Both the position numbers and the translations under genes were made by a program. DNA of 64,000 nucleotides from Erythrobacter ani (GTDB taxonomy: Bacteria; Pseudomonadota; Alphaproteobacteria; Sphingomonadales; Sphingomonadaceae). This document shows, piece by piece, positions 15,614 to 17,039 of the stretch (position 1 is its first letter; every line of letters begins with the position of its first letter). The notes under the pieces are model-generated. The model searched no databases and was not told the DNA's origin. It saw only the letters and a program-made list of their open reading frames with translations. Location of the stretch: positions 744,001-808,000 of the forward strand of contig NZ_JAGSPB010000002.1 of NCBI RefSeq assembly GCF_019204025.1, in the 5' to 3' direction.

Positions 15614-16027
15614 TCAACTCTCCTCGAGCAACAGCAGCACTGCGGTCACCACCATGCGTTCGTCCTCGCCGCCAAAGCGGTGATCGACTTCACGCACCGT
15701 AGCCTCGGCGACCAATTGGCCGGGAATGCGGAATTCGTGATCGGGCAAGTTGGCAATGAAGTCCTCCCCGACGGCGACGGCGAGCTTCCCGTCGAAATCG
15801 AGCATCACTTCGTGCCGCGCACCGGAAAAGGTGATCGACGCCCATGGCGTGTCCTCATGCGACAGCAGGCTGGCTTGTCCCTGGGCAAGCGTCAGCAGGG
15901 CCTCGCGAACACGGTCGCCCGTGGTGCGGCGAGGGCGGTAGCGCCGCGCTCGCAGAGTGGGGGCTGGGGCGGCGTCTGTGGACTTGTTTTCGAGATCGTC
16001 TGGCAGGGTGAGTTCTTCGATCAGCAT
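15614..16027 (-). CDS. Conserved protein of unknown function, distal gene of a two-gene unit
   Basis: The 137-residue protein starts MLIEELTLPDD, has a basic linker (RARRYRPRRTTGDRVREALL, about residues 28-47) and a C-terminal part with regular strands (RHEVMLDFDGKLAVAVGEDF, EFRIPGQLVAEATVREVDHR). There is no signal peptide or membrane segment, so it is probably cytosolic. I do not recognise a family. Its ATG lies inside the end of the upstream gene (7-base overlap), so the two are translationally coupled and divergent from the S24-type repressor gene. Confidence 0.75.
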   Translation of the reverse strand: MLIEELTLPDDLENKSTDAAPAPTLRARRYRPRRTTGDRVREALLTLAQGQASLLSHEDTPWASITFSGARHEVMLDFDGKLAVAVGEDFIANLPDHEFRIPGQLVAEATVREVDHRFGGEDERMVVTAVLLLLEES

Positions 16028-16239
16028 GAGGCGAGTTCCTTCGTTTCGATTTCGGTAGCGGCTGCACTGGTTTCGTAAGCCTGCATCCACCGCAGGGTGC
16101 GCTGTTCCGTGGCGGTACGCGGGATCCGGCCCATGCGCAGGTCGAGCACGAAGCGCGGATCATGCGCAGCGAGCCTTCCGAATTTCGTGGCAGGCATGTC
16201 GTGGGCTCGCAGGAATTTTTCGACTTTGCGGATCAGCAT
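16021..16239 (-). CDS. Small HTH-like protein of unknown function, proximal gene of a two-gene unit
   Basis: The 72-residue product, MLIRKVEKFLRAHDMPATKF, continues into GRLAAHDPRFVLDLRMGR. The pattern of a basic helix, a MPATKFGRLA turn and a second helix is what small Xre-like DNA-binding proteins look like. I recognise the pattern from alphaproteobacterial unknown proteins but cannot name a family. The ATG at 16239 follows GGGGACC. It is divergent from the repressor gene across about 140 bases that contain two palindromes, and it overlaps the following gene by seven bases. Confidence 0.72.
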   Translation of the reverse strand: MLIRKVEKFLRAHDMPATKFGRLAAHDPRFVLDLRMGRIPRTATEQRTLRWMQAYETSAAATEIETKELASC

Positions 16240-16308
16240 TGGGGTCCCCGTGATGGCATTTGACGAACAGGCGATTCGGCTTGTGTTCCTCAAATGTTCC
16301 AATCCAAA

Positions 16309-16342
16309 TCCTACTTGTCTAGGAAAAAACCTATGCTATAGG
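16309..16342 (+). promoter_or_regulatory. Predicted promoter with two operator palindromes for the S24-type repressor
   Basis: TCCTACTTGTCTAGGA (16309-16324) has arms TCCTA/TAGGA, and CCTATGCTATAGG (16330-16342) has arms CCTAT/ATAGG. A promoter can be read as TTGTCT (16315-16320), a 16-nt spacer, and TATAGG (16337-16342). So one palindrome covers the -35 box and the other the -10 box. This arrangement is what autorepression by the adjacent repressor would need. The palindromes are directly visible; the function is inferred. Confidence 0.6.
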
Positions 16343-16379
16343 AAAAATGAAGGGGTCGAACGCAAGGAAAGGCGTGGAA

Positions 16380-17039
16380 ATGGCCGAATTGGAAATGTCG
16401 CCGGAGCGTAAGAGGTTGCTCGAACTGTCGCGCGATCGGAACGTAAGCCTAAGCAAACTCTCCGAAATGCTGGGTCGTAACGCGGCCTATCTGCAACAGT
16501 TCATCAAGCGTGGTACACCTCGGAAGCTCGAAGAGGGCGATCGGCGAAAACTCGCGCAGTTCTTCGGTATATTCGAGGGAGAATTGGGTGCTGATGGGGA
16601 AAAATCCTACACAAATGTGAATGCCGGTCGCACGGCCGATTTTGCCAGCGTTCCACGGCTCGACATCGGGGCCTCCGCGGGGCCGGGCGCGATGCCGGCT
16701 GGCGAATCCGAGTTCGATGTTCTTCGGTTTTCCCGCCGGTGGCTGGCGGAACAGGGGCTCGAGAACGCGCAGTTGTCGCTCATCAGGGTGCAAGGCGACT
16801 CGATGGAGCCTCTGCTCAACGACAAGGACGAGATACTGGTCGACCGCACTCAGCGACCGTTTCGGGACGGCATCCATGTCATCCGTCTTGGTGATACGTT
16901 GATGGTAAAACGCGTGGCCAGTGCCGGGGGAGGGCGGTTATCCCTACTTAGCCAGAATCTGGCCTATCCGCCGGTCACGGTTTCGGTCGAGGATGTCGAG
17001 ATCGTGGGCCGGGTCGTATGGAAAAGCGGACGAATGTGA
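16380..17039 (+). CDS. HTH transcriptional regulator with S24 (LexA/CI-type) peptidase domain
   Basis: The 219-residue protein has an N-terminal Xre-like HTH (about residues 8-65: LSKLSEMLGRNAAYLQQFIK) and a C-terminal S24 domain. The catalytic dyad can be read as S141 (QGDSMEPLL) and K177 (LMVKRV). An Ala-Gly pair at 100-101 (GASAGPG) is a plausible self-cleavage site, as in LexA and phage CI. It therefore probably represses genes until DNA damage or another signal triggers cleavage. I chose the ATG at 16380, with AAGGAAAGG upstream; an in-frame ATG at 16347 would fall at the expected transcription start. Two palindromes overlap its promoter. Confidence 0.88.
   Translation: MAELEMSPERKRLLELSRDRNVSLSKLSEMLGRNAAYLQQFIKRGTPRKLEEGDRRKLAQFFGIFEGELGADGEKSYTNVNAGRTADFASVPRLDIGASAGPGAMPAGESEFDVLRFSRRWLAEQGLENAQLSLIRVQGDSMEPLLNDKDEILVDRTQRPFRDGIHVIRLGDTLMVKRVASAGGGRLSLLSQNLAYPPVTVSVEDVEIVGRVVWKSGRM

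Follow-up and report, generated by a model that had tools for sequence, protein, structure and literature searches.

Genes and control elements of the locus

In the 64-kb stretch of DNA that was analysed (the window), a gene for an S24 (CI/LexA-type) repressor occupies positions 16380-17039 on the forward strand, and two genes on the reverse strand diverge from it. The S24 protein matches PF00717 (E 1e-18), the transcriptional repressor family phrog_4 over residues 3-227 (E 2.4e-36) and the CI-like repressor family phrog_6201 (E 2.9e-18), while no Pfam HTH model matched its N-terminus. The Ser-Lys dyad and the Ala-Gly cleavage site proposed in the initial annotation are both present, the latter as A111-G112; the dyad, given there as S141/K177 from the ATG at 16380, corresponds to S152/K188 when counted from an alternative upstream ATG at 16347. 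The ATG at 16380 is the more likely start; in the relative L004 the ATG equivalent to 16347 does not share the reading frame of the gene.

The first divergent gene (16021-16239, reverse strand, 72 aa) lies in the position of Cro, and its product is modelled as a helical, HTH-like protein. A comparison of this model with the PDB gave no significant match (best HipB, E 0.86, with 434 Cro scoring lower). The second gene (15614-16027, reverse strand, 137 aa) overlaps the first by 7 bases, and its product has a predicted tail-terminator-like fold without any match in Pfam or PHROGs. Its best structural match in the PDB was 6tba_4A, a gene transfer agent particle protein (E 5.7e-4, Z 10.7), and models of viral proteins with the annotation of tail completion protein also ranked among the best; as PilO reaches a Z score of 9.1 as well, the assignment as a tail terminator is tentative. 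A link to gene transfer agents was considered and dropped, as the fold resembles the RcGTA particle protein but the genome has no match to PF11367, and a link to defence systems was dropped as PADLOC returned no match. No phage genome or prophage was recognised beside the S24 gene.

Between the two transcription units, a predicted -35 box (TTGTCT, 16315-16320, forward strand) and a -10-like element (TATAGG, 16337-16342, forward strand) are separated by 16 nt and are each overlapped by a palindrome, as had been described in the initial annotation. Palindrome 1, TCCTACTTGTCTAGGA, spans 16309-16324 as TCCTA-N6-TAGGA, with its outer half-site A at 16309-16313, and palindrome 2, CCTATGCTATAGG, spans 16330-16342 as CCTA-N5-TAGG, with the outer half-site D (TAGGA) at 16339-16343. 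Three further elements were absent from that description: a LexA (SOS) box, GTTCCTCAAATGTTC, at 16285-16299 with the form GTTC-N7-GTTC, a central dyad at 16320-16333 (putative operator O1) and an intragenic dyad at 16596-16609 (putative operator O2). The annotation had contrasted the palindromes with the GTTC-N7-GTTC box; the motifs are indeed unlike each other, but a box of just this kind is present here too, with its end 9 bp before palindrome 1, so that the contrast was incomplete.

Conservation and disruption of the locus in Erythrobacter

The S24 protein was matched in 96 of 120 genomes, its own included. As orthologs we used 58 loci from the same genus (L002-L059, the window among them), leaving out fragments and genomes with only the paralog; the named relatives all belong to Erythrobacter, with the S24 protein of E. 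rubeus being 85% identical. Upstream of the gene, a block of the orthologs, TTTCCTACTTGTCTAGGAAAAATCCTTCGTGTAGGAA, has a mean column identity of 88%, compared with 56-85% identity of the proteins to the query. In the 58 orthologs every column of the -35 box is either identical throughout or conserved to at least 90%. With both palindromes in place and the control region strongly conserved in Erythrobacter, the original observation stands. The proposal of an S24 regulator whose own promoter carries operator-like sites, conserved more strongly than the protein, is likewise supported. The small HTH gene was matched in 57 of the 58 fetched ortholog loci (partly masked in L034) and is displaced in the 58th genome.

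In five genomes (G064, G045, G002, G044 and G008) neither the control region nor the small gene was found at that place, the 137-aa gene is present only in part, and remnants of the S24 gene occur in all except G008, which suggests that control region and small gene were lost jointly. Four further genomes have the locus interrupted by insertion elements: L033 (G038), L042 (G039), L156 (G032) and L012 (G031). All of them occupy the same spot between the LexA box and the operator, beside ATTTCCTA, and their ends differ; this sequence is found on both sides of the element in L033 and L042, at the contig end and the element edge in L156, and on the one side seen in L012. The transposases in L033, L042 and L156 are ISXO2-like/IS1595.

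An S24 paralog with 43-46% identity is located at G000:C3:387500-392500 (L064) and has its own divergent small HTH gene, a LexA-type box and TAGGAAAATTCCTA.

A LexA box next to the divergent operon

The GTTC-N7-GTTC motif lies within the promoter region and is conserved in orthologs, as would be expected of a member of the SOS regulon: it is exact in 38 of the 58 loci, one base off in 14 and absent from 6. Similar boxes occur in the same genome near uvrA, recA, radA and an rmuC-like gene, and a LexA-type box is situated about 130 bp upstream of lexA. These neighbourhoods come from 20 of the 93 genomic places with the pattern, covered by 19 stretches and chosen by look, and because of this choice the known SOS genes found near boxes do not constitute an unbiased sample. 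Five box-adjacent proteins were scanned; those of uvrA, recA and radA passed the cut-off, the rmuC match remained below its cut-off despite an E value of 1e-58, and one protein had no match.

The box could instead govern the S24 gene, or could be a chance match, and we regard either as unlikely. The box is indeed situated upstream of the S24 promoter, and the motif is frequent, with 93 places in the genome against 89 for the control, so that GTTC-N7-GTTC alone is no commoner than expected from the control. Yet the box at the locus differs from that of uvrA by a single base and is conserved in position, and in L033 and L042, where an insertion element has split the locus, it is the divergent operon that retains the box (with one deviating base in L042), leaving the S24 side without one.

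A central dyad as the predicted core operator

The palindromes are rare sequences. Within the 64-kb window they are the only matches to CCTA-N2..9-TAGG, and the inverted arrangement TAGG-N2..9-CCTA has a single match, at 16320, with a chance expectation of about 0.08 matches per spacer length for these patterns. In the whole genome TCCTA-N3..7-TAGGA occurs at two places, one of them palindrome 1, compared with 14 for the reversed control pattern. The single inverted match coincides with O1, TAGGAAAAAACCTA (16320-16333), a TAGGA-N4-TCCTA unit that is one base off in the window, sits in the promoter spacer between the two palindromes and is built from their inner half-sites.

The model of the initial annotation, in which the two palindromes act as independent CCTA-N5/6-TAGG operators with neither an intragenic site nor LexA input, appears improbable to us. 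In its favour, both palindromes are present and infrequent, 51 of 58 orthologs keep the left half of palindrome 1, and in the window the outer pairs fit their half-sites better than does the central dyad with its one deviating base. However, the consensus did not hold across the genus: only 21 of 58 orthologs keep palindrome 2, even as CCTA-N3..6-TAGG with its variable spacer, and 7 have lost the left half of palindrome 1. In addition, two Sphingomonas homologs (L172 and L173, 43-44% identity) have neither palindrome and yet retain TAGGAAAAATCCTA, and the central unit recurs inside the S24 gene.

The TAGGA half of O1, by comparison, is present in all 58 orthologs and its TC[CT]T half in 53, and the TAGGA-N4-TCCTA unit is common to orthologs, paralogs, Sphingomonas, other families and viral contigs; among 20 homologs that belong to other families within the order, 10 have AGGA-N4-TCCT upstream. 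As the palindromes are partly lost while the two homologs in Sphingomonas and part of those in other families keep the central unit, TAGGA-N4-TCCTA at 16320-16333 is predicted to be the core operator, and the palindromes would then pair its halves with outer half-sites. When 86 loci (386 kb) were pooled, there were 101 occurrences of AGGA-N4-TCCT where 5.9 would be expected, 99 of them upstream of or inside the S24 gene. L052 and L057 have no exact AGGA-N4-TCCT in the fetched locus, their intragenic site being AGGT-AAAA-TCCTA. In the genome studied here the exact TAGGA-N4-TCCTA occurs only at the paralog.

In 40 of the 58 orthologs the start codon, as scored, comes 7 nt after the last TAGGA half-site, and for this reason the S24 mRNA of these orthologs may be leaderless.

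A second dyad inside the S24 gene

The putative operator O2, GGGGAAAAATCCTA (16596-16609), is one base off AGGA-N4-TCCTA and two bases off TAGGA-N4-TCCTA. At the same place NGGA-W4-TCCTA is present in 54 of the 55 orthologs scored and AGGA-N4-TCCTA in 46, and the eight half-site columns carry 1.87-2.0 bits, compared with less than 1 bit for most flanking columns. The dyad appears to be maintained at the DNA level, by codon choice, and its conservation for the linker peptide [ED][KNI]SY or for an RNA structure is very improbable. Although 57 of 58 proteins do have the SY dipeptide here, its serine is encoded by TCC in all 57 orthologs having the motif (background in these S24 genes, 223 of 963 Ser codons), all 55 orthologs scored have a G at the end of the codon two before, the DNA motif has moved to another protein position in the 58th ortholog (L058, where it encodes EEISY), and dyads of this type recur at O1 and in viral intergenic regions.

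O1 and O2 are 276 bp apart in the window and 254-384 bp apart in the orthologs, with a mode of 264 bp (27 loci). No helical phasing was seen across the ortholog spacings, and looping between the two sites would therefore be hypothetical.

Search for a wider regulon

A profile of the promoter block (R1) gave 59 strong matches in the 120 genomes (E up to 6e-7), all at S24 promoters. As 58 of these 59 sequences had been used to train R1, the informative part of this result is solely the lack of other strong matches in a search whose filters lose weak ones. Weaker matches (E at least 0.008) comprised paralog promoters, places within the S24 gene about 280 bp further downstream, and various scattered ones. 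Exact AGGA-W4-TCCTA was counted by eye, in 45 genomes of the genus with that of the window included, at 6 places that belong neither to the S24 locus nor to its paralogs, compared with 4 for the reversed control. In 12 stretches containing other TAGGA-N4-TCCTA places, 7 of 13 dyads fell within open frames of more than 200 codons and 6 did not; one of the latter, in L155, lies about 500 bp upstream of another S24 homolog. A wide regulon was thus not supported, as neither pattern nor profile searches gave a recurrent second target. With strong R1 matches confined to the S24 promoter, the operator looks autoregulatory, and its regulon apparently comprises this one locus plus the paralog.

Related loci on viral contigs

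The searches of viral contigs covered 5 loci and the best 80 of 123 loci, with one contig in both sets. The small-protein profile had matches with E values up to 0.01 in 17 of the 84 viral loci, and finds a divergent gene in the same position in L177 and L179-L181; these viral homologs gave no clear PHROGs match. The divergent pair of S24 and small HTH gene and the operator of the Erythrobacter locus are shared by viral contigs. Among the 25 records listed of 289, annotated repressors related to L177, namely c repressors of DMS3, a Mu-like phage, and the CI-like repressor of Rhodobacter phage RC1, have a low identity to it of 29-32%.

For comparison of control regions, 24 viral loci were chosen as reaching the S24 N-terminus; they are partly redundant, with L222 and L223, and likewise L179 and L180, repeating one another. 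By script, an operator-like match was counted upstream in 18 of the 24. Near the place corresponding to the LexA box, 11 have a second operator-like site and 4 a LexA box, and none of the 24 combines the box with a second operator of the form TAGG-N6-CCTA, although L183 has a LexA box plus a looser match. In the 7 loci with both operators matched, these are 39 bp apart. Several loci stop with the S24 gene or shortly behind it, so that the unit there may be either viral or a host flank, while L180 and L181 lie inside their contigs, with phage-type genes nearby in L180. Both loci also have two or three operator-like sites upstream of the repressor gene, about 24 bp apart (clear in L181), and downstream of it two such sites with a spacing of 23 bp, a lambda-like arrangement.

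Discussion

The S24 domain, the Ser-Lys dyad, the Ala-Gly site and the phrog matches together characterise the protein as a CI-like phage repressor, as do the divergent gene in the Cro position with putative operators in between and the homology of this small gene to its viral-contig counterpart. We consider it probable that the locus is a domesticated CI/Cro-type switch, which is autorepressed via O1 and O2 and whose divergent promoter is under LexA. The region would then be the control centre of a phage-type switch fixed in the Erythrobacter core genome. The CI-like S24 protein would bind O1 in the spacer between the -35 and -10 elements and repress its own promoter, assisted by O2 and by the outer half-sites of the palindromes, while the LexA box would act at the promoter of the divergent operon. 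Upon DNA damage, RecA would induce LexA and the S24 protein alike to cleave themselves, and both promoters would open. Binding, repression, cleavage, induction and O1-O2 cooperation are steps that we infer from sequence comparison.

A more specific reading holds that the phage operator on the Cro side was exchanged for the LexA box and that O2 was placed within the gene, with LexA and the repressor gating a two-gene damage operon. To this proposal we give somewhat less than even weight; phage capture and the direction of exchange between operator and LexA box are deduced from the present comparison of loci.

The lambdoid CI/Cro immunity region has the operators OR and OL. The Erythrobacter locus resembles it in its S24 repressor divergent to a small HTH gene in the Cro position with putative operators between them, and the viral relatives L180 and L181 do so in having operator-like sites on both sides of the repressor gene. 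In contrast to the lambdoid region, the host locus showed no recognisable phage genome and has a LexA box between its divergent genes, and its putative second operator is inside the repressor gene. With LexA the protein shares the S24 domain, the Ser-Lys dyad and the Ala-Gly site, but it scores 27 bits against a family cut-off of 111, is associated with a different operator and is encoded in addition to a separate LexA, itself above the cut-off, at C2:1133243-1133923. Autoregulation of the PurR type uses a second operator in the gene, and the locus is similar in combining a site in the promoter region with one further downstream, although the protein families are unrelated. Open-access literature searches, PMC1839093 included, showed no description of this locus.

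A marine bacterium and its genus thus appear to keep a phage-like repressor switch beside a likely LexA site. If this reading is true, the locus would be a clear case of a host rewiring a captured phage switch, with an SOS box replacing one operator, and of an operator inside a coding sequence that the choice of codons has preserved throughout a genus. The circuit would also be small and tractable, with its operator predicted and a testable two-input response to DNA damage.
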